This document shows, piece by piece, positions 4,997-43,910 of a stretch of DNA of 52,014 bases. The position numbers and the translations under genes are program-made. Numbering within the stretch: position 1 is the first letter of the stretch; each line of letters starts with the position of its first letter. The notes beneath the pieces were generated by a model. It had not been told where the DNA came from, made no database searches, and was given only the letters and a program-made list of their open reading frames with translations. The stretch is from Bacteroidaceae bacterium. Its GTDB lineage: Bacteria > Bacteroidota > Bacteroidia > Bacteroidales > Bacteroidaceae. The stretch lies in NCBI GenBank assembly GCA_017650045.1, contig JAGCFP010000084.1, forward strand, positions 1 to 52,014. Direction: 5' to 3'.

Positions 4997-5004
4997 TACT
5001 TTTG
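4997..5004 (+). promoter_or_regulatory. -7 promoter box (TACTTTTG) for the DUF1573 gene
   Basis: Matches the Bacteroidetes TAnnTTTG consensus 22 bp before the ATG at 5027. No clean TTTG -33 box is visible. Confidence 0.5.
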
Positions 5005-5026
5005 TAGCATTAAAGCTATAATTGAG

Positions 5027-6094: not shown

Positions 6095-6110
6095 TAGTAA
6101 TGAAAATGAT

Positions 6111-7214
6111 ATGATGGATCATCCTGAAAATAGCGAAGAATACAAAGGTCTGCAGGTAAATGCAGGCGTAGAGGGCGGCGTATCTATTGTAAATCCATAT
6201 CGCAAGAAAAATCCTCGTAAGCCACAGCCAACAGTGTCTGAGTTTGTAGAAGGTATCGTGAAGGGTGACATAACCATGCTCAGTCGTGCTGTGACATTGG
6301 TGGAGAGCGTGAAGCCAGAGCATCAGGTCATTGCGCAGGAAGTGATAGAGAAATGCCTGCCGTATTCGGGTAATTCTGTACGTGTGGGTATCAGTGGAGT
6401 GCCTGGTGCAGGAAAGAGTACTTCCATCGATGTGTTTGGGACGTATGTACTTGAGAAAAAGGGAGGAAAATTGGCTGTGTTGGCCATAGACCCAAGCAGT
6501 GAACGCACCAAAGGAAGTATCTTAGGTGACAAGACGCGTATGGAACACTTAGCTATTCATCCGAAGGCATTCATTCGTCCTAGTCCTTCTGCAGGTTCTT
6601 TGGGAGGTGTGGCTCGGAAAACTCGTGAGACCATTGTACTTTGTGAAGCTGCAGGATTCGACAAGATTTTTGTGGAGACCGTAGGTGTAGGACAGAGTGA
6701 GACTGCTTGTCATTCCATGGTGGATTTCTTCTTGGTCATCCAGTTGGCTGGTACTGGTGATGAACTTCAAGGTATCAAGCGTGGTATCATGGAGATGGCA
6801 GATGGTATAGTCATCAATAAAGCTGATGGAGATAATGTAGAACGTGCAAAGCTTGCAGCAAGTCAGTTCCGCTCTGCATTGCACATGTTCCCCGCTCCAG
6901 AATCAGGATGGACTCCAGAAGTTCATACCTACTCTGGTTTCTATAATCTGGGTGTAGATAAGGTTTGGGATATGATTTACCGTTACATTGACTTTGTGAA
7001 GCTGAACGGTTACTTTGATTACCGTCGTAATGAGCAGAGCAAATATTGGATGTATGAGAGTATCAATGAACAACTGCGCAACAGTTTCTATCAGAATGAA
7101 CTTATCGAGCCTATGCTTGCTATGGAAGAGGCGAGGGTGTTGCAAGGCAAGGTCACTTCGTTTGTAGCTGCGAAGCATTTACTTGATACCTATTTCGATG
7201 AAATGAAGAAATAA
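6111..7214 (+). CDS. meaB: Methylmalonyl-CoA mutase-associated GTPase MeaB
   Basis: 367 residues, the usual MeaB/ArgK length. The P-loop is GVPGAGKST (about residues 96-104), followed by AIDPSSERTKGSILGDKTRM, the FIRPSPSAGSLGGVARKTRE segment, the DxxG-like region FVETVGVGQSE and the NKADGDN base-recognition motif. MeaB is a G3E-family GTPase chaperone that protects and loads B12-dependent methylmalonyl-CoA mutase; this fits the propionate/succinate metabolism typical of Bacteroidales. The mutase genes are not in the window. Two adjacent ATGs (6111, 6114) are possible starts. The next gene starts 18 bp downstream. Confidence 0.93.
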   Translation: MMDHPENSEEYKGLQVNAGVEGGVSIVNPYRKKNPRKPQPTVSEFVEGIVKGDITMLSRAVTLVESVKPEHQVIAQEVIEKCLPYSGNSVRVGISGVPGAGKSTSIDVFGTYVLEKKGGKLAVLAIDPSSERTKGSILGDKTRMEHLAIHPKAFIRPSPSAGSLGGVARKTRETIVLCEAAGFDKIFVETVGVGQSETACHSMVDFFLVIQLAGTGDELQGIKRGIMEMADGIVINKADGDNVERAKLAASQFRSALHMFPAPESGWTPEVHTYSGFYNLGVDKVWDMIYRYIDFVKLNGYFDYRRNEQSKYWMYESINEQLRNSFYQNELIEPMLAMEEARVLQGKVTSFVAAKHLLDTYFDEMKK

Positions 7215-7232
7215 TATTTAAACTATAAGGTC

Positions 7233-8054
7233 ATGGATAAACAAGCCAATTATATCAAACGCATAGAGATTCCGAATCTTTGGGATCGCTATCGCATTGC
7301 TTGGGACCTTCGCCCTGATGTGAACATCTTGGGTGGTATAAATGGTGTCGGGAAAACGACCATCCTAAATCGATCCATTGATTATCTGGAACAGACCACG
7401 GGTCATGTGAAAAATGATGAGAAAAATGGCGTCAAGGTGTTTTTTGATGATCCCGAAGCCACCTTCATACCATACGATGTGATTCGTAGCTATGACCGCC
7501 CACTGGTGCAGGGAGAGTTCACTGCACGTATGGCAGACCCCCAAGTGCGTTCAGAACTGGATTGGCAAATTTATCTCCTCCAACGACGTTACTTGAATTA
7601 TCAAGTCAATATAGGAAATCGCATGATAGAATTGTTGGGTGGAGATGATGAAGATCGGTTAAAGGCTACTAAAGTGTCAGAACCAAAGCGTAAGTTCCAA
7701 CGACTCATTGATGACCTTTTCAGTTATACTAAAAAGAAGATAGATCGTAAAAGCAATGAGATTATCTTCTATCAAGGACGTGAACGCCTCACACCTTACC
7801 AGCTTTCCGCAGGAGAGAAACATGTGTTGGTCATTCTACTTACTGTTTTGGTGCGAGAAGGTGAGCACAGTGTACTTTTCATGGATGAGCCAGAAGCCTC
7901 TTTACATATAGAGTGGCAGCAACGACTTATCAGTATGATTAGAGAACTGAATCCCAATATGCAGTTGATTCTTACTACACATTCTCCTGCCGTCATCATG
8001 GATGGATGGATGGATGCTGTAACAGAAGTCAGTGAGATTGCTACAGAGTTATGA
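7233..8054 (+). CDS. AAA/ABC-type ATPase, partner of DUF4435 protein (AriA-like?)
   Basis: 273 residues with a complete SMC/ABC-type ATPase core: Walker A GGINGVGKTT (residues 34-43), ABC signature LSAGEK, Walker B VLFMDEPEASLH and H-switch TTHSP. There are no membrane segments, so it is not a transporter partner. It overlaps the DUF4435 gene by 4 bp (ATGA), so the two proteins are probably made together. ATPase plus DUF4435 is the composition of PARIS anti-phage systems (AriA/AriB). The ATPase here is shorter than the PARIS AriA proteins I know of, and the neighbours are housekeeping genes, so membership in PARIS is an inference. Confidence 0.8.
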   Translation: MDKQANYIKRIEIPNLWDRYRIAWDLRPDVNILGGINGVGKTTILNRSIDYLEQTTGHVKNDEKNGVKVFFDDPEATFIPYDVIRSYDRPLVQGEFTARMADPQVRSELDWQIYLLQRRYLNYQVNIGNRMIELLGGDDEDRLKATKVSEPKRKFQRLIDDLFSYTKKKIDRKSNEIIFYQGRERLTPYQLSAGEKHVLVILLTVLVREGEHSVLFMDEPEASLHIEWQQRLISMIRELNPNMQLILTTHSPAVIMDGWMDAVTEVSEIATEL

Positions 8055-9058
8055 GTCTTTCTCTCCGAAATAATTTGTCTTCCCAATACTTGGAGGCTGC
8101 ATCTAAGCTTAGTCCCAAGCAGAAGCGTCGTCGCATCGTGGCTTACGTAGAAAGCTACGACGATATATATTTTTGGCGAAGCATTCTCTCTGAGTTTGAG
8201 AATGAGACACGTTATTTCCGAGTGATGTTACCCTCTAATTCATCTCTTTCCAAAGGCAAGAAGATGGTACTTACCAGTTGCTTGCGAAGTACACAACTTG
8301 GAAAGAATCTTATTGCATGCGTGGACAGTGATTATGATTACTTGCTGCAAGACTCTACAGATGTTTCCAGGGAGATGAACACGAACCCTTACATTTTCCA
8401 GACTTATACATACGCCATAGAAAACTATCAGTGTTATGCTGAGAATCTTCACGACATCTGTGTGGAATCTACATTAAACGATCATCAGATATTCAATTTT
8501 CCTGCCTATATGCGTGAATATTCTGAAATAGTCTGGCCTCTTTTTGTATGGAACATCTTACTTTATCGTCAACACATGAATAATAGTTTCCCTATGAATG
8601 TCTTCTGTAACGTCACCATTCCTCCTACGATTGACATTCGGAAACCTAAGTTCAGTCTTGATGCCCTTCGCTTACAGGTGGAAAGGAAGATGGACGAGTT
8701 GGCCAAACGACTTCCTCAGTTTGTAGATAAACTCGAAGGGATGGATGAAGAACTTCAAAGATTGGGGGTAACTCCTCAATATACCTATCTTTTCATGAAG
8801 GGGCATCATATTAAGGAGAATGTCGTGATGAAACTTGTCAATCCTGTGTGCGTCCAGTTGCGTCGTGAACGTGAAGATCAAATCCGTCGTTTGGCTCAAC
8901 ATCGTAAGCAATATGAAAACGAACTCTCAGGCTACAATAACAGTGCGTCTCCTGTGGAAGTCATTATGCGCAAGAACGACAATTATAAAGATCTTTTCCT
9001 CTACGAATGGATACGTGAGGATATAAGCCAGTTCTTGATGGAGAGTGAAAAGAAATAA
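8051..9058 (+). CDS. DUF4435 (TOPRIM-like) protein, AriB-like candidate effector
   Basis: 335 residues. The N-terminal half has the DUF4435/TOPRIM layout: an invariant Glu after a beta strand (IVAYVESYDD, Glu34) and an acidic DxDxD cluster (CVDSDYDYLL, Asp92/94/96). These are the metal-binding residues expected of a TOPRIM nuclease. The C-terminal half is helical and charged and I recognise nothing in it. The start ATG overlaps the ATPase stop (ATGA). In PARIS, the DUF4435 subunit AriB is the toxic nuclease released by the ATPase scaffold. The gene converges on trkH with an 8-bp gap. Confidence 0.8.
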   Translation: MSLSLRNNLSSQYLEAASKLSPKQKRRRIVAYVESYDDIYFWRSILSEFENETRYFRVMLPSNSSLSKGKKMVLTSCLRSTQLGKNLIACVDSDYDYLLQDSTDVSREMNTNPYIFQTYTYAIENYQCYAENLHDICVESTLNDHQIFNFPAYMREYSEIVWPLFVWNILLYRQHMNNSFPMNVFCNVTIPPTIDIRKPKFSLDALRLQVERKMDELAKRLPQFVDKLEGMDEELQRLGVTPQYTYLFMKGHHIKENVVMKLVNPVCVQLRREREDQIRRLAQHRKQYENELSGYNNSASPVEVIMRKNDNYKDLFLYEWIREDISQFLMESEKK

Positions 9059-9066
9059 TTGCGTTT

Positions 9067-10518
9067 TTAGTTGCGATTCCAGAAACTGGGGTTGAATAGA
9101 ATAAGTACGGAGAATAATTCCAGACGACCCAGTAACATTAAGAACGATACCAACCATTTCCCTGCTGCAGGAAGTAAATGCCATTGGAACTCATGTCCTG
9201 AGGAACTTAAGCCAGGTCCCATATTGCTGAGAGGAGAAACGACACATCCTACTGCTTCGACAAAAGGTAATCCCATCACCATGAATATAAGTGTACAAGC
9301 TACGACGATGATGAAATAGAGCATGGTAAATCCCATCACAGTACTGATAAGTTGTGGTGCCACCGCTTGTTTGTTGATACGAACAGGTAAAACGGCATAA
9401 GGATGCAGGATATGACGGAATTCGTTCTTTACTGTCTTCATAAGCACCACCCAGCGTATCATCTTCATACCACCACTGGTACTTCCTGCACATGCACCTA
9501 TCATCATAGGAATAATAAGCAATCCCCATCCTACTGCTGGCCAAGTCATAATATCACTGGTGGCAAGACCACTGGAAGTGTGTAATGAAACAACCTGGAA
9601 GAGTGCTTTGCGGAAAGCCTCTTCACCTCCCATGCCTGTGCGTGCAAACAATATCAGTGTGATAATAAGTGTTAGACCAATGACGGAGCATAAGTAGAAT
9701 CGCAGTTCAGTATCATCGGAAAATTTACGAAACTTACGTTGTAGGAACATCAGTTGCAAGTTGAAATTGATGCCACAGATGAACATGAAAAGTGTGATGA
9801 CATATTCAATGTAGGCAGAATGATAGTATCCTATGCTTTCTTGATGGGTAGAGAAACCACCTGTGCAAGTCGTAGAGAACGCATGGCAGATACTGTCGAA
9901 TGGACTCATACCTCCCAATAGTAGAAGTCCGAAAACAATGACAGTGAAGCCTGCATAAAGTGACCACAGCCATTTGGCAGTGACCCCAATGCGAGGAGTA
10001 ACTTTGCTGCGGGTAGGTCCACTAACTTCTGCAGCAAAAACCTGTAGGCTCCTGCTTCCGAAGATAGGGAGTATGGCAAGGGTAAACATCAGTATGCCTA
10101 ATCCGCCAAGCCATTGGGTAAAGCAACGCCAAAAGAGAATCCCATGGGGCATGGAATCAATATCCGTCAGTATGGTACTTCCAGTACTGGTAATGCCACT
10201 CATAGATTCAAAGAATGCATCAGAAACATTGGGAATATGTCCGCCAATAAGATAGGGTAGGGTTCCAAAGATGGTATAGGCTAACCATGAGAAAGTGACA
10301 AGCACATAGCCATCACGTCGAGTAAACTGACGTGGAGCATTATGCCCGATAAAGAACAGCGTCAGTCCTGCAACAGAAGTTATCAGTGTAGAGATAAGGA
10401 AACTCTGCAATGCATCGTCTTGATAATAGTATGAAACGCCTGCGCTTATGGCAAGCATCAGTGATTCTATTCCAAGCAATACACCTACTAACCTGAATAT
10501 GGTCTTGAACCTTATCAT
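9067..10518 (-). CDS. trkH: TrkH-family potassium uptake protein
   Basis: 483 residues, highly hydrophobic, with the repeated membrane-pore-membrane pattern of Trk/Ktr channels. Selectivity-filter-like segments are visible (SMSGITSTGSTIL, TTCTGGFSTH, HTSSGLATSD, CAGSTSGGMKM). It is the inner-membrane K+-translocating subunit and works with TrkA encoded immediately upstream; the two genes overlap by 4 bp. Order of transcription is dxs, trkA, trkH. Confidence 0.93.
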   Translation of the reverse strand: MIRFKTIFRLVGVLLGIESLMLAISAGVSYYYQDDALQSFLISTLITSVAGLTLFFIGHNAPRQFTRRDGYVLVTFSWLAYTIFGTLPYLIGGHIPNVSDAFFESMSGITSTGSTILTDIDSMPHGILFWRCFTQWLGGLGILMFTLAILPIFGSRSLQVFAAEVSGPTRSKVTPRIGVTAKWLWSLYAGFTVIVFGLLLLGGMSPFDSICHAFSTTCTGGFSTHQESIGYYHSAYIEYVITLFMFICGINFNLQLMFLQRKFRKFSDDTELRFYLCSVIGLTLIITLILFARTGMGGEEAFRKALFQVVSLHTSSGLATSDIMTWPAVGWGLLIIPMMIGACAGSTSGGMKMIRWVVLMKTVKNEFRHILHPYAVLPVRINKQAVAPQLISTVMGFTMLYFIIVVACTLIFMVMGLPFVEAVGCVVSPLSNMGPGLSSSGHEFQWHLLPAAGKWLVSFLMLLGRLELFSVLILFNPSFWNRN

Positions 10519-11855
10519 TTGAAGAACTTTTCGATTTTCTGAATCATGCTGCTAAGACAGAATACCATCACATGGTCGCCCTTCTCAATAAGGGTGTTGC
10601 CATTTACCACCATACCTTCACCTTTACGTACCAGTCCTCCGATGGTTGTTCCCTTAGGAAGCCCTAAGTCTTTAACTTTATCCTTCGTGATACGCGAACC
10701 TTCTTTGACAATAAATTCAGCGACATCTGCATCAGCAAAGGTAAGGCATTTCACGTTCTCCACATCAGCATCCAGCATCATTTGGTAGATACGGCTGGCT
10801 GCTATTTTCTTCTTGTTGATGACAGTCCCTATATCCAGACTTTCTGCCATAGGGATATAATCGATATTCTCTACTTCTGCAACTGACTTCTGAACGCCAT
10901 AGCGCTTAGTAGCCAAGCAAGAAAGAATATTGGTTTCTGCATTTCCAGTGAGTGCGATAAAGGCATCCGTATTCTCCAATCCTTCATTGAGCAGAATGTC
11001 CATGTCGCGTCCATCTCCTCCAATGACGAGCACATTTCCTGATAAAACATTATTCAGTCGTGCAATGCGGTCAGGATTCTGTTCAATGATCTTTACGCTC
11101 ATATAGTCGGGCACATACATGGCAGTACGGATGGCAATGCGGCTTCCGCCCATGATCATCACACTGCGAACGTCTGGATAGTCTTCCTTTCCTGCTATCT
11201 TACGGATATATGGAACATACTTACGTGTAGTGGTAAAATAGACAATATCCCCCAGACGGATGAAATCATCACCACGAGGAATGAGGGTTTCACTACCACG
11301 TTTGATGGCCACTACGTGATAAGGAAGGTTGGGAGCACCCAATGTTTTCAGTTGCACATTAAGTATTTCTGCTTTCTGACGCATTTTCACTCCTATGAGG
11401 ATAAGGGCACCATCACAGATTTCCCACCATTGTCTTACCCAACTCATCTTGATGGCAGAGACAATTTCCTTCGCTGCCAGATGTTCTGGATAAATCAGTG
11501 AGCCCACTCCCATCTTTCGGAAGAACTCCTGTGCATGAGGGTCCAGGTATTCATAGTTGTCAATACGAGCCACTGTCTTGCGGGCGCCTAAATCAGCAGC
11601 AAACATGCAGGAAGTAAGGTTACGACTCTCGTCTGGTGTTACTGCAATAAAGAGATCTGCCTTACCTGCTCCCACATCCTTCAGTGTATGGATACTGCTG
11701 GGACTTCCCACCGCCGTCATAAGGTCGAAATTGCTGCTAAGTACACTAAGTTTCTCCTCATTCTCATCGATGAGGGTAATGTCTTGATTCTCGCGTGAAA
11801 GCATCTTTGCGAGATGGGTTCCTACGGCTCCAGCGCCAGCGATAACGATTTTCAT
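10515..11855 (-). CDS. trkA: Trk system potassium transporter TrkA
   Basis: 446 residues with two RCK modules in tandem. Each starts with a Rossmann nucleotide-binding glycine motif: MKIVIAGAGAVGTHLAKML at the N-terminus and SVMIMGGSRIAIRTAMYV near residue 230. Each is followed by a TrkA-C-like domain. TrkA is the cytoplasmic NAD(H)-binding regulatory subunit that gates TrkH. The gene starts 3 bp after dxs ends and overlaps trkH, so the three are probably one operon. Confidence 0.93.
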   Translation of the reverse strand: MKIVIAGAGAVGTHLAKMLSRENQDITLIDENEEKLSVLSSNFDLMTAVGSPSSIHTLKDVGAGKADLFIAVTPDESRNLTSCMFAADLGARKTVARIDNYEYLDPHAQEFFRKMGVGSLIYPEHLAAKEIVSAIKMSWVRQWWEICDGALILIGVKMRQKAEILNVQLKTLGAPNLPYHVVAIKRGSETLIPRGDDFIRLGDIVYFTTTRKYVPYIRKIAGKEDYPDVRSVMIMGGSRIAIRTAMYVPDYMSVKIIEQNPDRIARLNNVLSGNVLVIGGDGRDMDILLNEGLENTDAFIALTGNAETNILSCLATKRYGVQKSVAEVENIDYIPMAESLDIGTVINKKKIAASRIYQMMLDADVENVKCLTFADADVAEFIVKEGSRITKDKVKDLGLPKGTTIGGLVRKGEGMVVNGNTLIEKGDHVMVFCLSSMIQKIEKFFK

Positions 11856-35200: not shown

Positions 35201-35428
35201 GAATTTATGCAAAAACACCTCACACCTCACCTTACGCTGAATAGTTATTGATTCATTTATATTAATAAGGGTGAGGTGTTGAAACAACACCTCACCACAC
35301 ATCACCTCTATGCATAAGACTTGGTGAGGAGTGGTGAAGTTTAAAGATAACACCTCACCTTCGAAAACGAATATCCTTCATGATATAACTAAGCAAAGGT
35401 GAGGTGTGAGGTGTTTTTGCATATATTC
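35201..35428. repeat. 228-bp inverted-repeat element built on ACACCTCAC / GTGAGGTGT
   Basis: The outer arms 35,208-35,233 and 35,396-35,421 are perfect 26-bp reverse complements; with one mismatch they extend to 35,201 and 35,428. Inside is a second perfect hairpin (12-bp stem, 3-nt loop, 35,270-35,296), and another ACACCTCACC copy lies near 35,350. The arrangement resembles a MITE or a REP/BIME-like element. I see no target-site duplication. The 710-bp gap 35,029-35,738 holds this, the tandem repeat, the tRNA terminator, attL and the integrase promoter region, and no convincing gene. Confidence 0.75.
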
Positions 35429-35451: not shown

Positions 35452-35486
35452 AAAAAGCACCTCTGAAAATCTCAGAAGTGCTTTTT
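35452..35486. terminator. Original tRNA-Met terminator (now displaced from the tRNA)
   Basis: AAAAAGCAC and GTGCTTTTT flank a second short stem, forming a bidirectional hairpin with A/T tails. It abuts the 3'-tRNA fragment at attL, where it would have terminated the uninterrupted tRNA on the minus strand. Confidence 0.7.
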
Positions 35487-35530
35487 GTAGCGGGAGGGGG
35501 GCATGATCCCTCGACCTCATGATTATGAAT
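35486..35530. other. attL: 45-bp duplicate of the tRNA-Met 3' half
   Basis: Identical over 45 bp to 43,835-43,879. It corresponds to the tRNA from the anticodon loop to the 3' end on the minus strand, and is a non-functional tRNA remnant. Confidence 0.9.
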
Positions 35531-35582
35531 TCAGCAATGATAAATATGTGTAAATATATTTGCATGAAAATGAATTATTTAC

Positions 35583-35590
35583 TAATTTTG
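35583..35590 (+). promoter_or_regulatory. -7-like box (TAATTTTG), possible integrase promoter
   Basis: Matches TAnnTTTG. It lies about 149 bp before the integrase start, upstream of the arm-type repeats, so integrase binding could repress its own gene; that is inference. Confidence 0.35.
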
Positions 35591-35642
35591 TAGGCGAAAA
35601 CATAAACCGCAATAAATGGTAATATTTAGCAATAAATCGTCA

Positions 35643-35666
35643 AAATGTTTTCGCTATGTTTTCGGA
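35643..35666 (+). repeat. Putative integrase arm-type site, left end
   Basis: A 24-bp sequence with two ATGTTTTCG units in tandem; 23 of 24 bases match 43,762-43,785 near the other end, in the same orientation. Further partial copies follow (CTATGTTTTC at about 35,671 and GTTTTCGC at about 35,690). Confidence 0.65.
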
Positions 35667-35738
35667 AAATCCTATGTTTTCTGATTTTTGTTTTCGCTTA
35701 CTATAAAATAATATATAATTTAATATAATCATGAGGTC

Positions 35739-37175
35739 ATGAGAGCAAAAGAAGTTTCAGAAGTAGGGGGCTGTAATATAAGTATCGTCCTTGACAAAAG
35801 AACAAGTAAGGGCAATGGCACTTATCCCGTTTCATTGCGTTTCACGATAAACAGAAAATCGTGGTATTATAGAATAGGCGACAATTTGACAGAATCAGAA
35901 TTTGACCAAATACAAAACACGTCTTCCAGGAAAGGGAGACCGACAGAGAAACAACTAAGCCGCTCAAAAATAAAGGAATCGTGGATTGCACAACTTGAAG
36001 CATACAAAGAGCGCGTTTCTGAAATAGCAAAACGCAATTCCTTGACGATTGATTTATTAAGGGCAAATCTTGTAGGCAAAAGCATTAAATCCAGTTTTAT
36101 AGATGTTTGGGAAGGCATTATTTCGGAGCGAAGATATTGCACGGCTCAAAGTTATACCTATGCATTGCACTCTTTCACAAAACATACAGGATTTACAAAA
36201 GAAGATGGCTTTTCTGTTAATGCTGAAACATTCCACCGCTGGGTTCAGGGAATGACCGATGAGGGGTTCAGAAAGACCACAATAGGGATTTATCTTCGTG
36301 TGGCGAGAGTTGTTTATAACGAATGCATTAGGCTTGGGTATATTCAGCAAAAAGAATATCCTTTTTCCAACAAATCAGACAGGGCACATGATGAATCGAT
36401 TTCTATACCGAGAGGTTCGAGTAGAAAATCCCAATATCTGAACGTTAACCAAATGACAGATTTATTTAATCTTTTCATTAGTGGGGATGTAGAAAAAATT
36501 AAAGTTCGCTATAAATACCAGACAAAACTTATTAAGGAAAACCTTGGGTTATTCCTTTTCATGTATTGCGGAAATGGCATGAATCTCGCCGACGTCGCTT
36601 ATCTAAAATATGACGATTACTATTTCCAGTCTGATGGAAAGGCATTTCGTTTCAATCGCTCAAAGACTAAAGACAGAAGCGATAACGAAAGTGAGGTAAT
36701 CGTTCCTGTTACAGAGGCATTAAGCAAAATTATTGATGCGATAGGAAGCAAACCTTCATACGGACAACTTGTTTTCCCTAAAATTCTTGCTAATGCTTTA
36801 AATGAGGAGCAGCGGGTAAAACGGATTGCACTTGTAAATGCCAGTGTTCTGGATAATTTGCGGAGAGTTTCTAATTATCTCGGTTGGAATATCAGACCAT
36901 CGGCAACATGGGCAAGGCATTCTTTCGCAACTAACTTAACCCACCAGTCGGTGCCTGAACGATATATATCCGAATCTATGGGACATAGTGTAGAGAAAAA
37001 CGTAACGTCGCGATATATCGCGGATTTCCCGCTCGAAAGGCAAATAGAGTACAATTCTTTATTGTTCCGTCTTGAGGATGATGCGGAGAAACAAAGACGC
37101 AAGGATTTGGCAACCGAGTTATTAAAGAGCCTGACAGCAGAAGAACGCGCAGAACTGATAAAATCGTTACTTTAA
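35739..37175 (+). CDS. Tyrosine recombinase / phage-type integrase
   Basis: 478 residues. The N-terminus is an arm-binding domain of Bacteroidetes type (ISIVLDKRTSKGNGTYPVSLRF), followed by a SAM-like core-binding domain (about 110-210). In the catalytic domain I see the beta-hairpin Lys (FNRSKTKDR), box II ATWARHSFATNL, ESMGHSVEKNVTSRY and nucleophile Tyr in SRYIADF. The box I Arg is not obvious: the position reads CGNGMNLADVAYLK, a variation I associate with this phylum's integrases. It sits next to attL and is read into the element. A hairpin terminator follows. Confidence 0.92.
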   Translation: MRAKEVSEVGGCNISIVLDKRTSKGNGTYPVSLRFTINRKSWYYRIGDNLTESEFDQIQNTSSRKGRPTEKQLSRSKIKESWIAQLEAYKERVSEIAKRNSLTIDLLRANLVGKSIKSSFIDVWEGIISERRYCTAQSYTYALHSFTKHTGFTKEDGFSVNAETFHRWVQGMTDEGFRKTTIGIYLRVARVVYNECIRLGYIQQKEYPFSNKSDRAHDESISIPRGSSRKSQYLNVNQMTDLFNLFISGDVEKIKVRYKYQTKLIKENLGLFLFMYCGNGMNLADVAYLKYDDYYFQSDGKAFRFNRSKTKDRSDNESEVIVPVTEALSKIIDAIGSKPSYGQLVFPKILANALNEEQRVKRIALVNASVLDNLRRVSNYLGWNIRPSATWARHSFATNLTHQSVPERYISESMGHSVEKNVTSRYIADFPLERQIEYNSLLFRLEDDAEKQRRKDLATELLKSLTAEERAELIKSLL

Positions 37176-37195
37176 GCCTTCCACATAATAAAGAT

Positions 37196-37227
37196 AAAAG
37201 AGTTACCATTAGGTAGCTCTTTTTTAT
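37196..37227 (+). terminator. Intrinsic terminator after the integrase
   Basis: AAAGAG-T-TACC pairs with GGTA-G-CTCTTT (ATTA loop, one G-U pair), followed by a T-run. It lies 20 bp after the integrase stop. Confidence 0.75.
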
Positions 37228-37316
37228 TTTGCATAAATCCTAAACCTAAAATAAATATTAAGAAAGTTGTTAATACAAACTTGAATTAAAATGCACTGGC
37301 GCAAATCTTAACGCAT

Positions 37317-37324
37317 TATCTTTG
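37317..37324 (+). promoter_or_regulatory. -7 box (TATCTTTG) for the HTH/excisionase gene
   Basis: Perfect consensus 29 bp before the ATG at 37,354. With the upstream terminator it gives the second operon of the element its own promoter. Confidence 0.55.
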
Positions 37325-37353
37325 TGATATAATAATTAAAAAATGCATGAATT

Positions 37354-37629
37354 ATGGATAAAATTAATGAAAAAACGATGCTTGTAGTTTCGGCAAGTGA
37401 CCTACGGCAGTTTGGATTGGAACTGATCCAAAGTGCTCTTGGTTTTAATTGTGAAAGTACACAAAGAAATGAGGATGAGCTTTTAACGATTAGTGAGGCG
37501 GCGGCACTTCTTGGTGTATGCAAAACGACCTTTTGGAAACTGAAAAAGCAGGGGAGGATAAGGGAAATCCGTTTAGGAAAACGGAATCCTCGTTATTCCA
37601 AAAATGAGTTACTTGGACTTCTTAAATGA
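37354..37629 (+). CDS. Excisionase-like helix-turn-helix protein
   Basis: 91 residues. The C-terminal 45 residues are a MerR/AlpA-type winged HTH of the 'helix-turn-helix domain 17' kind: LTISEAAALLGVCKTT, FWKLKKQGRI, then the basic wing RLGKRNPRYSKNELLGLL. Such proteins act as recombination directionality factors or as switches in tyrosine-integrase elements. The N-terminal 45 residues (LVVSASDLRQFGLELIQSAL) are the short helical leader common in Bacteroidetes versions. It has its own promoter between the integrase and the putative initiator. Confidence 0.82.
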   Translation: MDKINEKTMLVVSASDLRQFGLELIQSALGFNCESTQRNEDELLTISEAAALLGVCKTTFWKLKKQGRIREIRLGKRNPRYSKNELLGLLK

Positions 37630-37695
37630 TTAATAGAAACAGAGCAAACAGCATTTCGGTGGCTGAGGCTGAAAGATACTCAACAAGATAGTATA

Positions 37696-38424
37696 ATGGA
37701 AGAACGATTGCATTTTTATACGTTTCCGTGTTCACTAATGAAAGGCTTTTCTGAATCAGAAGAAAAGGCAAATCATTGTTTGGAACTAATTATATGCTTT
37801 GTTGGTTTCAGGGCTTGGATTGATAGTAAATGTAATGATGTTAGGCGTTTTAATAGTATAATTTGCAAGAGATTGAGGTTATCCAATTTTTTTAATGGCA
37901 TAACTTATGATGAATTTATAAGGATGCCAATAGCTCAGGAAATGATAGCGATTTTCAACAACCATTCCAAAGAGGCTAATTTCTCAATGTCAATAGATAC
38001 CTTTTTTCACTTTAAAAATAGTGACAAGATAAGACAGACAGACAGAGAACTATTATTGGCTTTTCTTTCTGTTAAAAGCATACTCGGAGGACGTACTTAC
38101 TGGCTTACAAATAAAACTATACTACTTTCAAGAATGAGCGGAAACACAAAAACTAAAGCGGATGCCATTAGTTCATCATTAATGAAATATACTTCACGTT
38201 ATCACTTGGGTATCTTGCTTAATGGGTTATTTCTAAAGTACGGAGTTAGTATCTATTCGGATAGGGGAATCAGAGGTTTCTATATATCATTAAAAAAGAC
38301 TGATAACGACGAACCAGATTTGGAATGGCTTGCTGATGTTGTAGAAGAAAAAAGGAAAGCTAAGGATAATTCTCTTCACAAGGCTTTAAAGAAGATAAAG
38401 AGCCAGCGTAATGGTACATCATAA
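37696..38424 (+). CDS. Putative replication initiator (winged-helix-like), unrecognised family
   Basis: 242 residues, not assigned to a family by eye. Residues about 120-205 could form a winged helix: a first helix (LLLAFLSVKSILGG), a turn region (YWLTNKTILLSRMSG), a recognition-like helix (KADAISSSLMKYTSRY) and a beta wing (YSDRGIRGFYISLKK). The C-terminus is strongly basic. The gene ends inside an array of ten ACAT-cored repeats spaced about one helical turn. This is the usual place of an iteron origin next to its initiator, and the basis for the call. It could also be a transcriptional regulator. Confidence 0.45.
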   Translation: MEERLHFYTFPCSLMKGFSESEEKANHCLELIICFVGFRAWIDSKCNDVRRFNSIICKRLRLSNFFNGITYDEFIRMPIAQEMIAIFNNHSKEANFSMSIDTFFHFKNSDKIRQTDRELLLAFLSVKSILGGRTYWLTNKTILLSRMSGNTKTKADAISSSLMKYTSRYHLGILLNGLFLKYGVSIYSDRGIRGFYISLKKTDNDEPDLEWLADVVEEKRKAKDNSLHKALKKIKSQRNGTS

Positions 38425-38530
38425 CGACATCTTAATACAACATCTTAATACAACATCATAACGACATCAAACAACATTCTTAACAACATTATTACAGCAT
38501 TCTTAACGACATTATTACAGCATCCTTATA
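38413..38530 (+). repeat. Iteron-like array, candidate replication origin
   Basis: Ten ACAT or AGCAT cores at about 38,416, 38,427, 38,440, 38,453, 38,464, 38,474, 38,486, 38,497, 38,509 and 38,520, that is 10-13 bp apart. The fuller consensus is C[A/G]ACAT-Y-nTTAATA. The array starts within the last codons of the putative initiator and is followed by a very AT-rich stretch (38,530-38,590). Confidence 0.6.
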
Positions 38531-38586
38531 AAGAGCTATATAATAAAGAGAAATAAAGAGCTAAATAATAAATAAATGGAATAATA

Positions 38587-38630
38587 AAAGAAGAAAGATT
38601 TTCTTCTTTGTCGATTTCAAGAAAAATCGA
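38587..38630. other. Two adjacent hairpins downstream of the iteron-like array
   Basis: 38,587-38,609 is a perfect 10-bp inverted repeat (AAAGAAGAAA / TTTCTTCTTT) with a 3-nt loop. 38,611-38,630 is a 7-bp stem (TCGATTT / AAATCGA) with a 6-nt loop. They may be a terminator, or part of the origin as a single-strand initiation or nicking structure. Confidence 0.5.
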
Positions 38631-38654
38631 CCCTGATTTTGAGGACAAAACAAT

Positions 38655-38849
38655 ATGATAATTAAAATTTACGAAAAACCCGATAGTAAGGGCAGCCTAA
38701 TTGCTACGCGTCAATGCCCATTTGACTACCCGCACAAGGTTGGCAGCTCTGAATGCATAAGATGTATAAATTTTAAATCAATTTATCAGAGTGGAAAAGT
38801 CGATTGCGCGATGAATTCCCCTCAATATGAACAGGGAAAATTATTTTGA
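38655..38849 (+). CDS. Small Cys4 protein, unknown function
   Basis: 64 residues (MIIKIYEKPDSKG...). Four cysteines at residues 21, 34, 37 and 51 (CPFDYPHKVGSSECIRC, then VDC) could bind one zinc ion. No family is recognised. It stands alone between the hairpins and the methyltransferase gene, 22 bp upstream of the latter. Size, Cys spacing and charge suit a small DNA- or protein-binding factor, which is inference. Confidence 0.55.
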   Translation: MIIKIYEKPDSKGSLIATRQCPFDYPHKVGSSECIRCINFKSIYQSGKVDCAMNSPQYEQGKLF

Positions 38850-38871
38850 TAACATTTATAAAAAGTAAGAT

Positions 38872-40281
38872 ATGAAAGCGAAAAGAAGGATAAAGATTTC
38901 ATTACTGGAAGAAAATGAAGGACAGATACTAGAAGTTCCGCGAAATCCACGTTGGATCTCTGATGAAAAGCTCGAAGCACTTGAAAGAAGTTTGGAGCGT
39001 TCGCCAGAGCTATTGGAAGCGCGTCCGCTGATAGTTTATCCGTTAAATAACAAATACGTAATCCTTGGTGGGAATATGCGCCTACGCGCTTTAAAACGGC
39101 TCGGAGCGATTGACGTACCTTGTTATGTCCTTTCGATAGAAACACCAGCCGCGAAACTTCGCGAAATTGTCATTGCCGACAATAACGCTTTCGGACAAAA
39201 CGACTGGGAGGCTCTGAAGGAGTGGGATGCGGAGGAACTTGCCTCATGGTCGTTTGACCTGCCCGATTGGCAGGAGGACGAATTACAAGACTTCACAGAG
39301 GAAACAAATCAAGAAGATAAGCAGCTTGACGATGAGGCGGCGGAAGCGTTACTTAACGATGCGATTAAAGACGCGGCGGGCGAGTTTGCCAATCAGTTCG
39401 ATGAGTTAGGGGGCTTTTCATTCATTACACCACACTCCGCGCGTTTTAACTTTATTCAATTTGACAGATATGGCAAAGAGTATCACAGATACAATTCCCT
39501 AGCTTTCCACAAAGTTCAATTTCAGACGAAAGGTGATAATTTTAGTTCTTATGAGGGGTTGAGGCTGATTCAAGACGGGACTATTAATCCTGAGCGTTTG
39601 CGCTTTGTCTGTGGCGACAGATGGAGCTCCCTGCCTACGGGAAGCCTTGCCTTTGGCGGGGCAAAGATGCCGCTTGATTTTCCCGCAGACCTAGCGCGTG
39701 ACCTTATCAATGAGTTTGCAACAGATGGCAAGGTGCTCGATCCTTGCGCTGGGTGGGGCGGACGACTTGTGGGCTTCCTTGCAAGCGAAGCGGATGAGTA
39801 TGAGGGCGTGGACGCATCGCCTGAGCAGGTGAGCGGTGATTTGCTCATTTACGACACGTTTAAGACAGCCTGCCGACGGGAAAAGAAAGTAACGATAACT
39901 TGCACACCTTTTGAAAAGAAACCCCTTCAAAGCTCTTATTTCGATATGGCGATAACTAGCCCCCCATATTTTGACACAGAGCAATATATCGGTGGAGAAC
40001 AGTCACACGATGTTTATAAAAGCTATGAAGATTGGCGCGAGGGTTTTTACCGCACATTAATTGCAAAATGTTTCGATACTTTGAAAGATGGCGGAATGTT
40101 TTGCCTTCAGGTCGGGAGCCAACGTTACCCGCTACTTGATGACGGAAAGAAGATTGCAAGCGAAATCGGCTTTGATTTGGTCGAGGTGCGAGCAACAGAA
40201 ATGAAGAATAACCAAACAGGTACAGAGCTTGAACGGGGCGAGGTGGTTGTAATTCTTCGGAAGTCTGATAATAACAGATAA
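38872..40281 (+). CDS. ParB-like nuclease domain fused to DNA methyltransferase
   Basis: 469 residues. The N-terminus is a ParB/Srx-type domain with the GGNMRLRALKRLG motif (66-78). The C-terminal half (from about residue 280) is a SAM-dependent DNA methylase: motif I VLDPCAGWGGRL (from about 288), EGVDAS, and motif IV SPPYF (363-367), which points to an amino-methyltransferase (adenine or cytosine N4). Such fusions are frequent in phages and mobile elements, usually without a partner restriction enzyme, and none is seen here. It probably methylates the element or helper DNA. It is followed within 13 bp by the DUF5681 gene. Confidence 0.87.
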   Translation: MKAKRRIKISLLEENEGQILEVPRNPRWISDEKLEALERSLERSPELLEARPLIVYPLNNKYVILGGNMRLRALKRLGAIDVPCYVLSIETPAAKLREIVIADNNAFGQNDWEALKEWDAEELASWSFDLPDWQEDELQDFTEETNQEDKQLDDEAAEALLNDAIKDAAGEFANQFDELGGFSFITPHSARFNFIQFDRYGKEYHRYNSLAFHKVQFQTKGDNFSSYEGLRLIQDGTINPERLRFVCGDRWSSLPTGSLAFGGAKMPLDFPADLARDLINEFATDGKVLDPCAGWGGRLVGFLASEADEYEGVDASPEQVSGDLLIYDTFKTACRREKKVTITCTPFEKKPLQSSYFDMAITSPPYFDTEQYIGGEQSHDVYKSYEDWREGFYRTLIAKCFDTLKDGGMFCLQVGSQRYPLLDDGKKIASEIGFDLVEVRATEMKNNQTGTELERGEVVVILRKSDNNR

Positions 40282-40294
40282 AAAACAGGCAGCT

Positions 40295-40603
40295 ATGGCA
40301 AGATTTAAGAAGGGAGAGAGTGGCAACCCGAAGGGTCGCCCGCTTGGAAGCAAAAACGAGAAGTCGGCTTATATCCGCGACTGGGTTGTAAGCCTGATAG
40401 GCACTAATAGCCATGACCTTTTAGCTACATTCAAGAATCTAAATTTAAAGGAGAAATGGAAAATTATTGTTGCGCTGATGCCCTACGCAATTCCGCGCCA
40501 GGTGGAGCAGAAAATTGATGCAAACGTGGATTTATCTTCGCTTGACGACAGACAATTGGATTTGGTAATTGACGGCTTAATTAATGAATTGGCAGATGAA
40601 TAA
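40295..40603 (+). CDS. DUF5681-type protein, small-terminase-like
   Basis: 102 residues. The N-terminus is the highly recognisable basic motif FKKGESGNPKGRPLGSKN (about residues 4-21), which defines DUF5681. In phages such genes commonly sit directly upstream of the large terminase and are thought to include small-terminase-like DNA-binding proteins. Here no large terminase follows. A TerS-like gene without TerL is a hallmark of PICI-type satellites, which redirect a helper's packaging motor. The role is inferred from context. Confidence 0.72.
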   Translation: MARFKKGESGNPKGRPLGSKNEKSAYIRDWVVSLIGTNSHDLLATFKNLNLKEKWKIIVALMPYAIPRQVEQKIDANVDLSSLDDRQLDLVIDGLINELADE

Positions 40604-40907
40604 TAACAATAAAGATGAGGCTATTATATTGACAAAAGAAGATAAACTTTTTTTGCTCAACCTCGCACGGCAGGGGTTCGTTACTGATGCCGATAAATCA
40701 ATACTTCGCGAAAAGTTCTTTGCTGGAGAGCCTCAGCTACTTATCCGATGTGTCAGCACAAAGGCAGAGGTGGAGGAATTGCACCGACTTGACGAATTAA
40801 GGAAAAATTTTCACATCGACGGCGATTGTGGCGTACTGATGGAAAACGACCCGATGGTAAAAGAGGTGTTCGAAGAAATAGATCGTTTTAGAAATGGCTT
40901 GGCATGA
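40596..40907 (+). CDS. Small acidic protein of unknown function
   Basis: About 103 residues from MNNNNKDEAII (an earlier in-frame ATG at 40,584 is possible). It overlaps the DUF5681 stop by 8 bp, so the two are translated together. The sequence is helical and acidic (LTKEDKLFLLNLARQGFVT, VFEEIDRFRNGLA) with no recognised family. The tight link suggests a partner of the DUF5681 protein, for example a second packaging or capsid-size factor; that is speculation. Confidence 0.6.
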   Translation: MNNNNKDEAIILTKEDKLFLLNLARQGFVTDADKSILREKFFAGEPQLLIRCVSTKAEVEELHRLDELRKNFHIDGDCGVLMENDPMVKEVFEEIDRFRNGLA

Positions 40908-40981
40908 TTCTAAATTTTTGTTTAACCTCATTAAAAAGCAGAAGCCCACCTGTTTTGTTTCAGGTTTGCGTCGGTGAAACA

Positions 40982-41049
40982 GGGGCGGACTTATTCCGAT
41001 TGTTTTTTAAGTTGTATGTTTACTAATCAATAAGTCCACCCCCTTTTTA
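40982..41049 (+). terminator. Long inverted repeat, probable terminator
   Basis: 40,982-40,995 and 41,029-41,042 are 13/14 complementary, with a 33-nt loop, followed by CTTTTT. It closes the methyltransferase-DUF5681 gene group. A smaller pair (CCTGTTT / AAACAGG) lies just upstream. Confidence 0.5.
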
Positions 41050-41071
41050 GAATTAAACAGATGTTTGGATT

Positions 41072-41368
41072 ATGGAAACGGGTGAAAGATATTTTCAAAA
41101 GTTCAAAGGCGGTTGCCAACTTTTGAGTGATGACGGCTGTTTGAAGATTATCCTACGTTGTACGATAGACCGTGGAGCGAATGGAAAAGAAACAAGGTTT
41201 TACACGGCACATACTTTCGTTTACTACAAAGAAGAGGACGGAACGAGTGGCTGGTACGAGTCAACAAACGTGAGTATACATAAAAGTATTGGTGCGTACA
41301 TTAAAGACATTTTAAATTGTCAGGATTTTAGGAAAAGCGTAAATGAATTTAAAAAATATAACTTATGA
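41072..41368 (+). CDS. Hypothetical element protein
   Basis: 98 residues (METGERYFQKFKGG...). Predominantly beta by appearance in the first half (CLKIILRCTIDRG, RFYTAHTFVYYKEEDG) and helical at the end. No recognised family, signal peptide or membrane segment. It overlaps the next gene by 4 bp (ATGA), which indicates joint expression. Confidence 0.65.
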   Translation: METGERYFQKFKGGCQLLSDDGCLKIILRCTIDRGANGKETRFYTAHTFVYYKEEDGTSGWYESTNVSIHKSIGAYIKDILNCQDFRKSVNEFKKYNL

Positions 41369-42036
41369 GAAAAGAAGAAAAAATATTTGTTTTACAAGAC
41401 GATTTCAAGGCTGATGAGCTAAGGCGAGACCTTTATACTGGACTCAATCAGTTAAGGAGAATCGGCGAAATTTTGCAAGGATCTGGAATAATTCTCACAA
41501 ACGAGGTTATAAATGATTGCATACGCTTGAAACGAGCGTTTAAACAGGGCGGGCGAGCATTGACAAAAAATTGCAACGCTGGAAGCCTTGCGACACCCTA
41601 CGAAGTCATTTCCGTATGGGAGAATGCCGAGCATCTGTTTGAAGCATTCGAGGAAGCACACCACAAGACAGGTAACACGGCTTTCGATGAGCAACTTTCA
41701 GAGCAACGCGAAAAGCTGTTTGAAAAAGTTTTAAAAATTACGGAAAAGATTAATGAGCACGGACGCGCGGAGATACTTCTTTCTTGCGCCTGTGTCATTG
41801 ACGGACAGATTACCGCAAGGGCAGATTTCGAGGACGAAATCAAGAAAGCAACAAGCGTTTACATCGAATCCGATGAGGCTTTAAAGCTGATGAAGTTACA
41901 CCAGCAGGCAGAAGCCGCACTAAATAGATTGCATGAGGCGATACCGTGTGCAATATTTGACGTCCAAGACATTTTCGAGACCTTGGAGGACGGCACTATC
42001 CGCCTTGTGCCTTTCGATTATAACAGATTTGTATAA
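41365..42036 (+). CDS. Hypothetical helical element protein
   Basis: 223 residues, charged and mostly helical (LYTGLNQLRRIGEILQGSGI; EQREKLFEKVLKITEKINEH; LKLMKLHQQAEAALNRLHEA), probably coiled-coil. No catalytic motif seen. The extended helical build could suit a structural or scaffolding-like protein, but I do not recognise it. Translationally coupled to the 98-residue protein upstream; the next gene starts 20 bp downstream. Confidence 0.65.
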   Translation: MRKEEKIFVLQDDFKADELRRDLYTGLNQLRRIGEILQGSGIILTNEVINDCIRLKRAFKQGGRALTKNCNAGSLATPYEVISVWENAEHLFEAFEEAHHKTGNTAFDEQLSEQREKLFEKVLKITEKINEHGRAEILLSCACVIDGQITARADFEDEIKKATSVYIESDEALKLMKLHQQAEAALNRLHEAIPCAIFDVQDIFETLEDGTIRLVPFDYNRFV

Positions 42037-42056
42037 CACAATAAAAAGAGCAAAAA

Positions 42057-42404
42057 ATGGGAAAAAGTGAAATTAATTTAGAAGAACGCCCTTTCCTTAA
42101 AATGATGGTGGAGCGTGACCGAGCAATAGCGGAACGGCGTTTGAAAGAAAGGCGTGAAAGTGCGAAAGCTCCTTATGTCAGAGAATTGGAGGAGATTAAA
42201 GCCCGCGCCCATAGAGATGGATTCAAGCGCGAAGAAGATGAGAAACGCGAAAGCGAGCTTTTGACTATTTGCGAAATGATTGACAGCGGGGAAATTGAGC
42301 CCGTAAAATCTTCGTTTGACTTCGTTGGGGCGATGAAAGATTTTGCGGCAAGAAGAATCGAAGCAGAAAAGCAGCGCATAAATCAAAATCATGGCATAGT
42401 ATAG
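42057..42404 (+). CDS. Highly charged small protein of unknown function
   Basis: 115 residues dominated by Arg, Lys and Glu (MMVERDRAIAERRLKERRES; REEDEKRESELLTICEMIDS), predicted by eye as long helices. No family recognised. It is the last of the 41,072-42,404 gene group. The following 180 bp hold imperfect inverted repeats (TTCCC near 42,494 / GGGAA near 42,518) but no gene. Confidence 0.6.
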   Translation: MGKSEINLEERPFLKMMVERDRAIAERRLKERRESAKAPYVRELEEIKARAHRDGFKREEDEKRESELLTICEMIDSGEIEPVKSSFDFVGAMKDFAARRIEAEKQRINQNHGIV

Positions 42405-42585
42405 TATTATGTTGTACCTTTACTTTTTGCATTCGTGTTCGGTTCGTGATGAATAGAATACGATTTTGTTAAACATCGTTAAGGAAATGGTGTTCCCTCG
42501 GTTTTTCCTTGTGGCTTCGGGAAATAACCGTACCATTGCAATGAGATTTTAAATAAATAAGTTTTACAATTAAAAGAATAAGATT

Positions 42586-42843
42586 ATGGACTTTAAAGGA
42601 ACTTACTCTCCAAATCGTTTTATAAGTGAAGATTTCGCAACGTTATCTTTAAGTTTAAATGACGTTATGGCATTGCTGTCTGATAATATGCACAGCTATC
42701 CAATGTCGACCGACCCAATCAATCAGGCATTGACGGAAGCAATGAAGCATTTACAGCTTGCTGATGCCGAGATAAACAGAGCTATTGGAATAGATGCCCT
42801 AAGGGCTTTCCGTGAAGTGGCAGAAGATGAAGAATTATTATAA
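42586..42843 (+). CDS. Hypothetical small element protein
   Basis: 85 residues (MDFKGTYSPNRFISEDFATL...). Two amphipathic helices are likely (LSLNDVMALLSDNMH; LTEAMKHLQLADAEINRAI). No recognised family. It is flanked by gaps of 181 and 133 bp, so it may be transcribed on its own. Confidence 0.55.
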   Translation: MDFKGTYSPNRFISEDFATLSLSLNDVMALLSDNMHSYPMSTDPINQALTEAMKHLQLADAEINRAIGIDALRAFREVAEDEELL

Positions 42844-42929
42844 ATAATCTCACTCAAAAAACATTATTTTATTAATGTTTGTTTTGTGCCATGCTGCCCG
42901 TATCTGTGAAGATGTGGGCAGTATTTATT

Positions 42930-42961
42930 TTTGCAAGAGATATACTTTTTTATTATTTTTG
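42930..42961 (+). promoter_or_regulatory. Promoter (TTTG, 20-bp spacer, TATTTTTG) for the right-end gene pair
   Basis: TTTG at 42,930-42,933 and TATTTTTG at 42,954-42,961, a good two-box Bacteroidetes promoter 15 bp before the ATG at 42,977. Confidence 0.6.
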
Positions 42962-42976
42962 CGGTTATTAGTGATT

Positions 42977-43321
42977 ATGGAAAATAATAAAGAAATCAGG
43001 CTTGCCTTTAGCCAGCAAAATTTAGGTTGTATTTATGAGAGTGCAAAAGCCCGCATGAAAGCCCACCCTAAAAGGGCCGCCGATAAACTAAAAACCGTAG
43101 AGGGATGTCCTCATTTTGAAAGTAAAAAAGAGGCGGAAGAATTTGCAATAAAGATGGCAAAGGAAAAACCGTATGGGGGCATCAAACTATGGGCTACGAT
43201 AAAGAAAGAAGAAGAGTTTTACCTTCTTGGTGCTCCGTGGTTAGTATCAGATGGGAATCAGCACATGGCAGCCGAGTATGTCGGACTTTGTTTTATAGAT
43301 AATGCTTATAACCTGATTTAA
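42977..43321 (+). CDS. Hypothetical cargo protein A at the element's right end
   Basis: 114 residues from MENNKEIRLAF; the longer reading frame from 42,875 contains the promoter, so the short start is preferred. The sequence (MKAHPKRAADKLKTVEGCPHF, LWATIKKEEEFYLLGAPWL) matches no family I know. It is followed after 2 bp by a second 114-residue gene, making a two-gene unit with its own promoter next to attR. This is where satellites and prophages often carry accessory (defence or toxin-antitoxin) genes. Confidence 0.6.
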   Translation: MENNKEIRLAFSQQNLGCIYESAKARMKAHPKRAADKLKTVEGCPHFESKKEAEEFAIKMAKEKPYGGIKLWATIKKEEEFYLLGAPWLVSDGNQHMAAEYVGLCFIDNAYNLI

Positions 43322-43323
43322 AA

Positions 43324-43668
43324 ATGGCGGAAGATTTTATTAATATAAGCTGTGACGATTTTAAATACTTTCATGGAGAGGAGAAGAATCCATATCCAGA
43401 TGAGGATATACGTTCAAAGTTTTGGCATGGAGAAATGATGTTTCATTACGTTATAAAGAAACAACATGAGGATTTGAACTACGATTTTTTTAAAGGACTT
43501 ATAAATGATGTGAAAGAATGGAGGAAAGAACTTAGTAGCCCAAACAATCCTCATCATGATTTCGCGGAACGATACAACGACAAACAGATTACAATAGTTT
43601 TTTATATCGCTATGCTTTTTGGAAAGTGGTGCCCATACGATGACCTAGGGTGGATTTTTGAGTATTAG
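43324..43668 (+). CDS. Hypothetical cargo protein B at the element's right end
   Basis: 114 residues (MAEDFINISCDDFKYFHGEE...), acidic, rich in Asp, Tyr, Phe and Trp. No recognised family. Separated by 2 bp from the upstream gene and probably co-translated. Acidic and basic partners of equal size would suit an antitoxin/toxin pair, but no toxin motif is visible. The stop is about 94 bp before the right arm-type site. Confidence 0.6.
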   Translation: MAEDFINISCDDFKYFHGEEKNPYPDEDIRSKFWHGEMMFHYVIKKQHEDLNYDFFKGLINDVKEWRKELSSPNNPHHDFAERYNDKQITIVFYIAMLFGKWCPYDDLGWIFEY

Positions 43669-43761
43669 ACGCATCTTTTGTACTTTACGTTTTTTTCCCG
43701 TTATTAAATCAAACACAGGAATCCCCCTTAAAAGTAGTAAAGATAAAGTAATAATGGGTAG

Positions 43762-43785
43762 AAATGTTTTCGGTATGTTTTCGGA
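43762..43785 (+). repeat. Putative integrase arm-type site, right end
   Basis: 23 of 24 bases identical to 35,643-35,666, same orientation, with two ATGTTTTCG units. It lies 50 bp from the attR core. Confidence 0.65.
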
Positions 43786-43791
43786 GTAAAG

Positions 43792-43825
43792 AAAAAGCAC
43801 CTTTAAGTAAACCTTAAAAGTGCTT
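43792..43825. terminator. Element-supplied replacement terminator for tRNA-Met
   Basis: On the minus strand, AAGCAC and GTGCTT plus an inner stem (TTTAAG / CTTAAA) form a hairpin, followed by a T-rich run, 12 bp after the tRNA 3' end. The sequence differs from the displaced host terminator at 35,452-35,486 but shares the outer AAAAAGCACCT. Confidence 0.7.
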
Positions 43826-43834
43826 GATTATCAA

Positions 43835-43879
43835 TGTAGCGGGAGGGGGGCATGATCCCTCGACCTCATGATTATGAAT
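43835..43879. other. attR: 45-bp repeat restoring the tRNA-Met 3' half
   Basis: Identical to attL. The element's copy completes the tRNA gene from the anticodon loop to the 3' end. Confidence 0.9.
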
Positions 43880-43910
43880 CATGCGCTCTAACCAGCTGAG
43901 CTATCCCGCC
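43837..43910 (-). tRNA. tRNA-Met (CAT anticodon), integration site
   Basis: 74 nt without encoded CCA. Acceptor GGCGGGA pairs with TCCCGCT (one G-U), D-arm GCTC/GAGC, anticodon stem CATGA/TCATG with loop TTCATAA, discriminator A. The T-arm is unusual: stem GAGGG/CCCCC with an A-C mismatch and loop ATCATGC instead of TTCRANN. The attL copy has the same bases. CAT could also mean tRNA-Ile2 (lysidine-modified), but the body suits elongator Met better. A promoter with both boxes lies upstream. Confidence 0.9.

Follow-up and report, generated by a model that had tools for sequence, protein, structure and literature searches.

We analysed a 52,014-nucleotide stretch of DNA from a Bacteroidaceae bacterium (GenBank assembly GCA_017650045.1, contig JAGCFP010000084.1), hereafter the window. 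It holds an island inserted at a tRNA-Met gene, which a reading of the letters alone (the original prediction) had proposed to be a phage satellite. The features of the island and its target are as follows; TerS and TerL are the small and large terminase subunits.

35486..35530, no strand: attL, left attachment site, a 45-bp direct repeat with 100% identity to 43835-43879
35739..37175, plus: tyrosine integrase, 478 amino acids (aa) (PF17293 1.4e-7, PF00589 3.5e-7, phrog_1 1.4e-16)
37354..37629, plus: excisionase-like helix-turn-helix (HTH) protein, 91 aa (PF12728, HTH_17, 1.5e-8; phrog_66 2.5e-7)
37696..38424, plus: rep242, putative replication initiator, 242 aa, no family match
38427..38572, no strand: iteron-like arrays (12/13-bp and 23-bp units), putative origin, directly 3' of rep242
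38655..38849, plus: s64, small Cys-rich protein
38872..40281, plus: ParB-like domain fused to a DNA methyltransferase, 469 aa (PF01555, N6/N4 methylase, 1.8e-8; ParB_N below cut-off)
40295..40603, plus: DUF5681 protein, 102 aa, proposed TerS-like packaging-recognition protein (PF18932 2.6e-7)
40584..40907, plus: p107, coupled partner, its start overlapping DUF5681, at the place of TerL in phages
41072..41368, plus: p98
41365..42036, plus: p223 (homologues in loci L089, 5e-7, and L088, 6e-7)
42057..42404, plus: p115, no family (comparison with L088 not significant)
42586..42843, plus: p85, no family
42977..43321, plus: p114a, no family (open reading frame (ORF) open from 42875; ATG at 42977 preferred)
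43324..43668, plus: p114b, no family
43835..43879, no strand: attR, second 45-bp copy, the 3' part of the tRNA-Met gene
43836..43910, minus: tRNA-Met (CAT), intact, the integration target (ARAGORN)

Boundaries and gene content

The island is bounded by a direct repeat that is exact over 45/45 bp, with 8,349 bp from start to start. ARAGORN locates the tRNA-Met gene on the minus strand at 43836-43910, which makes the right repeat copy the 3' portion of an intact tRNA gene, and a 45-bp match at a tRNA 3' end is far beyond chance. The perfect att repeats and the insertion of some 8.35 kb into tRNA-Met, both claimed in the original prediction, thus held up. The GC content of the island is 0.391, versus 0.445 for the remainder of the window. 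Thirteen intact genes were called within it, every one on the plus strand. The island is integrated site-specifically and encodes an integrase of its own, as phage satellites do.

Pfam and PHROGs matches confirmed the predicted identities of the integrase, the excisionase-like HTH protein, the ParB/methyltransferase and the DUF5681 protein. Seven small genes had been counted as unknown; we count eight, besides the 242-aa protein that lacks a family match. The excisionase-like protein also matched a TerS family (phrog_57, 0.0011), more weakly than the excisionase family (2.5e-7), and we read that match as a generic HTH similarity.

Does the island encode parts of a virion? Pfam and PHROGs searches of all 13 proteins gave no match to TerL, portal, capsid, tail or relaxase, in agreement with the predicted absences, and NCBIfam and PADLOC searches of 10 proteins each gave none either. 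A relaxase, capsid or TerL in the island, any of which had been named as speaking against a satellite, was therefore not matched. At the level of Pfam and PHROGs matches the island has neither structural genes nor TerL, as is characteristic of satellites; as eight proteins are without a family, they might still include a structural gene of a wholly new kind. Further homologues of p223, after those in L089 and L088, lie in L333, L112, L126 (the same as L349) and L102. The p223 family was not found in any viral locus collected, and PHROGs searched with five p223 homologues as queries gave no match at 0.01.

The ParB-methyltransferase matched phrog_17622 (5.1e-35) and phrog_498 (7.1e-21). Its ParB part (window:38884-39261) shares 47-48% identity with a protein of Leptospira phages LE3 and LE4, and 46-48% identity with the ParB of a prophage at a tRNA-His gene (L031:5114-19730, genome G087) in which integrase, ParB, TerS-like protein, TerL, portal and capsid were recognized by eye. 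Perhaps the island acts against phages? In an anti-phage or superinfection island, DUF5681 would interfere with phage packaging while the island itself went unpackaged. A ParB-methyltransferase accompanied by unknown cargo would suit such a role, and interference with phages is frequent among satellites according to the accessible text of PMC10803314. However, PADLOC returned methyltransferase-type matches for the ParB-methyltransferase (best MTase_II 2.2e-11, mad2 3e-11), its other matches were weak (PD-Lambda-5_A 0.041, and a GajB match for p114b that we disbelieve), and the island's own putative initiator and iterons point to replication. We regard the defensive explanation as quite unlikely.

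DUF5681 in phages and in islands

We collected relatives of the DUF5681 protein from viral contigs (the best 80 of at least 174) and genome contigs (the best 80 of 245). Ranking in both sets was by similarity to the DUF5681 of the window, so that both favour its type. For the count of distances from DUF5681 to TerL, the script's filter recognized no DUF5681 ORF in 9 of the 80 viral loci and in 23 others, which were dropped; L004, L092, L094, L098 and L104 were among those dropped, though DUF5681 is present there by other analyses. A locus was testable if it had 800 nt of room downstream, and TerL was sought within 1.5 kb.

Phage-type DUF5681 on viral contigs was followed by TerL in 46 of 47 testable loci (within 150 nt in 41), and a ParB match lay within the locus in 37. 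For island-type DUF5681, TerL was found in 13 of 17 loci on viral contigs (within 150 nt in 6), and in 2 of the 38 host-genome loci that also had an integrase match anywhere at E 0.01 (L115 and L152). The TerL models were trained iteratively on these same loci and checked afterwards against Pfam and PHROGs: 63 proteins (61 viral, L044 and L035) gave matches to Terminase_3 (50), Terminase_6N (41), Terminase_3C (39) and Terminase_6C (12), and 13 of 14 proteins from island-type or distant loci matched TerL phrog_2.

In a 5.4-kb faecal phage record (L044), the ParB-methyltransferase, DUF5681 and TerL genes are consecutive, and DUF5681 overlaps TerL (Terminase_6C 6.8e-8). The island resembles this and other ParB-DUF5681-TerL loci of tailed phages (L155, L163, L172, L173) in that DUF5681 directly follows the ParB-methyltransferase. 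It differs in that the small coupled p107 stands where TerL would be, and in having no structural genes. As TerL adjoins DUF5681 in most phage-type viral loci, DUF5681 holds the TerS position in many phages, and its product is a candidate TerS-like packaging-recognition protein on the strength of gene context. Where a phage-inducible chromosomal island (PICI) would carry TerS or another packaging-redirecting gene, the island has a protein that occupies the TerS position in phages and matches no named TerS family.

Might the island instead be an integrative mobilizable element, taken along by conjugation or generalized transduction, and DUF5681 an ordinary DNA-binding protein? Such elements, too, have genes for integrase, excisionase and replication, and DUF5681 lies away from TerL in one phage type considered below. 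However, none of the 13 proteins matched a relaxase (oriT was not searched for), DUF5681 is at the TerS position in nearly all of the phage-type viral loci, and one island-type DUF5681 (L104), compared with 72,556 plasmid records, had no match at E 0.01. We consider a mobilizable element unlikely.

The genome contigs, together with genomes sampled from the window's own bacterial family, genus and order, yielded 40 distinct islands once 2 duplicates had been removed; part of the bounds were set by hand. A repeat at a tRNA or tmRNA gene was found in 37; the targets tallied were Leu (16), Arg (5), Met (4) and others. The sole repeats of L129 and L131 lie about 70-80 bp away from the tRNA, and L157 (Vibrio sp. 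qd031; 4243-11125) is a 6.9-kb element with integrase and DUF5681, a 17-bp repeat and no tRNA; given L157, the class may reach beyond Bacteroidota. The 36 islands with firm bounds span 4.8-13.6 kb (median 7.0 kb). Since the shortest repeats measure 13 bp, single short-repeat islands are weaker cases than the window's.

Three TerL profiles matched 1 of 26 islands searched internally (L115), versus 69 of 80 viral loci, and six structural or TerL proteins of two phages, used as queries, gave no match in the other 25 islands. The matched island, L115:4036-11665, is a 7.6-kb tRNA-Leu island in which DUF5681 is followed by a real TerL (PF17288, PF04466), with no portal or capsid recognized. The order and genus counts scored TerL and integrase on the DUF5681 strand only. 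Among 20 order loci, fetched from 48 places listed and mostly the best scoring, 15 had an upstream integrase, 12 a tRNA/tmRNA repeat and none a same-strand TerL; the corresponding figures for 16 genus loci were 5, 4 and 0. Island-type DUF5681 occurs in 40 of 393 sampled order genomes, some of these occurrences presumably lying in phages or integrase-less loci.

In the islands a small coupled gene usually stands behind DUF5681, at the place TerL takes in phages. Gene order is shared with L088, an island-like locus of the window's family, where s64, DUF5681, p107, p98 and p223 come in the same sequence as in the window. Two DUF5681 genes each are present in islands L111 (9989-11239) and L131 (9618-10276).

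That the island is a degraded remnant of a larger prophage is disfavoured, even though its ParB-methyltransferase-DUF5681 segment resembles part of a phage terminase locus such as L044. Against a remnant speak the perfect att sites, the 13 intact genes, and the low dN relative to dS (nonsynonymous and synonymous divergence) of DUF5681 and its partner in three locus pairs. Nor are the homologues leftovers of a single prophage: most of them lie in small islands, each integrated on its own, and many different tRNA genes serve as targets. We think a remnant very improbable.

The putative replication module

The original prediction also named a putative initiator with an iteron-like array. The array is real: its best tandem-repeat score is 95, versus a maximum of 46 among 40 dinucleotide shuffles. 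The AlphaFold model of rep242 is confident (predicted local distance difference test, 87), and the non-significant fold matches listed for it include winged-helix proteins and phage replication initiators; we infer an initiator acting on the iterons.

A two-row rep242 profile found matches in 12 of 393 order genomes, its own included. Of the 11 loci tested, 7 have tandem repeats, located at the rep gene or immediately 3' of it, that score above every one of the 40 shuffles (the window, L004, L058, L060, L117, L123 and, marginally, L063). Repeats that beat the shuffles were not found in L061, L064, L067 and L121; the rep genes of L061 and L064 look like orphan copies. Replication genes vary among the DUF5681 islands, with rep242-type genes, Phage_CRI (L109, L116), D5_N/DUF5906 (L107) and a DEAD helicase (L111).

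The island-like locus L060 (genome G415) combines a rep242-type initiator, integrase, HTH protein and 3' iterons with a Terminase_2 TerS (PF03592, 1.4e-25), which supports the idea that the rep242 lineage may travel with TerS-type genes. L060 showed no att repeat at a tRNA, and TerL had no match in L060, L070 or L071.

Several long or tail-like genes were seen in these loci. L121:10916-14794, in a rep242-type locus, is a very long gene with a Pfam tape measure match (TMP_3, 5.7e-22), and L060:13540-17190 is another very long gene, without a Pfam match and tape-measure-like by eye only. A phrog_5377 protein is encoded in two island-like loci (L089:11317-11790 and L060:13034-13531); the one in L089 also matches tail completion/Neck1 (phrog_5, 7.9e-7).

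Satellite interpretation and candidate helpers

The exact att repeats, the DUF5681-TerL context, the recurrence in 40 islands, the gene order shared with L088, the low dN relative to dS of DUF5681 and its partner, the TerS of L060 and the occurrence of DUF5681 in a potential helper type together favour a satellite. We conclude, with a probability of roughly 0.7, that the island is a helper-dependent phage satellite of a Bacteroidota family for which the literature searched contained no description. The predicted Bacteroidales satellite of an undescribed family thus gains support from the TerS position of DUF5681, the class of small islands, and the DUF5681 shared with candidate helpers.

Those candidates are Bacteroides phages BF1-TP2 and BKO1-TP3, which, going by sequence comparison, may be helper phages. 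Both carry island-type DUF5681 (E 1.2e-24 and 2.5e-17) and an integrase of the same family as the island's; unlike the island, they are 65-68 kb long with annotated portal genes, and no rep242 homologue was found in them. In a tree built from few columns, their DUF5681 proteins are sister to those of islands L092 and L094 (100/86, 99/93), and the window groups with L088 and L089 (99/97). The DUF5681 tree requires no fewer than 4 switches between an island and a viral context, with 10 as drawn versus 21 in shuffles. Of the genus loci, 10 of 16 resemble prophages of the BF1-TP2/BKO1-TP3 type, and genomes G617 and G678 each contain one of these prophages as well as an island. As an isolated candidate helper type, these phages would make helper dependence directly testable.

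How would such a satellite work? The proposed steps are induction by a helper, excision, replication and packaging. A temperate helper would trigger excision of the island, rep242 would fire replication at the iterons, and the TerS-like DUF5681 protein, perhaps with p107, p98 and p223, would recruit TerL and procapsid of the helper to the satellite's DNA.

Several observations weigh against this interpretation. In BF1-TP2-type phages DUF5681 lies near the integrase and not beside TerL; in BF1-TP2 the distance is about 19 kb if TerL is, as we take it to be, the gene that is annotated as tail spike but bears a Terminase_6C note. The excess of genomes with both an island and a prophage of this type is weak (P 0.03-0.05). 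No Terminase_6N TerL was found in the host metagenome-assembled genome, which is 77% complete, and the sequences analysed showed neither a helper nor an excised form nor packaged DNA. None of the PHROGs matched by DUF5681 has an assigned function, its fold model is weak (predicted template modelling score 0.40) and its function is only predicted. The partner profile, at E 0.01, flagged 14 of 38 integrase loci and missed p107 itself. A structure search with rep242 gave no significant fold match at E 0.001, and p115, p85, p114a and p114b have no supported homologue.

The island would work like a PICI, yet it is not one by membership. PICIs have a divergent regulatory module of the Stl or AlpA type and a Pri/Rep primase module. 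The island shares with them and with Staphylococcus aureus pathogenicity islands a size of about 8 kb, an integrase with an excision factor, putative replication functions of its own, a candidate TerS-like gene and the lack of structural genes. It differs in its TerS candidate, DUF5681, in a putative initiator without a family match and in the absence of a called divergent regulatory gene, all 13 genes being on one strand. Among the 13 proteins, Pfam and PHROGs gave no match to a primase, nor to the capsid genes that a capsid-forming PICI would carry. P4-like elements encode a P4-type replicase, Sid, Psu and delta, and none of these was matched in the same searches.

In its accessible text, PMC10803314 describes phage-inducible chromosomal minimalist islands (PICMIs) of Vibrionaceae as adjoining fis and having a DUF3987/DUF5906 primase, with no terS homologue found in them. 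The island is similarly small, with integrase, HTH regulator and no capsid-remodelling genes, and is unlike PICMIs in its tRNA-Met target, its putative initiator with iterons and its candidate TerS-like gene; sister island L107, though, has D5_N/DUF5906. In the same accessible text the satellite carriers named are Firmicutes, Gammaproteobacteria and marine bacteria, and the phyla named for PICIs do not include the island's. The marine elements VEIME and tycheposon are mentioned there and in the accessible text of PMC11389934. No described Bacteroidota satellite appeared in the literature searched, a scope that left out most subscription papers and preprints; DUF5681 was mentioned in a Salmonella phage paper.

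A bolder proposal, for and against which we see the odds as about even, is that these islands form a phylum-wide Bacteroidota class, with mosaic replication modules and tRNA/tmRNA targets. What would define the class is a hijack cassette, in which a TerS-like DUF5681 protein is translationally coupled to a small protein that bears a KIxLLxxLxxG-type motif and stands at the place of TerL; in some members p98 and p223 come next. DUF5681 would be exchanged with temperate helpers of the BF1-TP2/BKO1-TP3 type, whose TerL would be taken over. If so, a major phylum of the gut would possess satellites of a class of its own, the cassette would be a searchable marker, and DUF5681 would gain a function.

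Outside the island, to the left of attL, window:35088-35437 contains a tandem repeat of 22 bp together with several direct and inverted repeats of the GGTGAGGTGT type, with 33-nt arms that are 97% complementary at 35201-35233 and 35396-35428.

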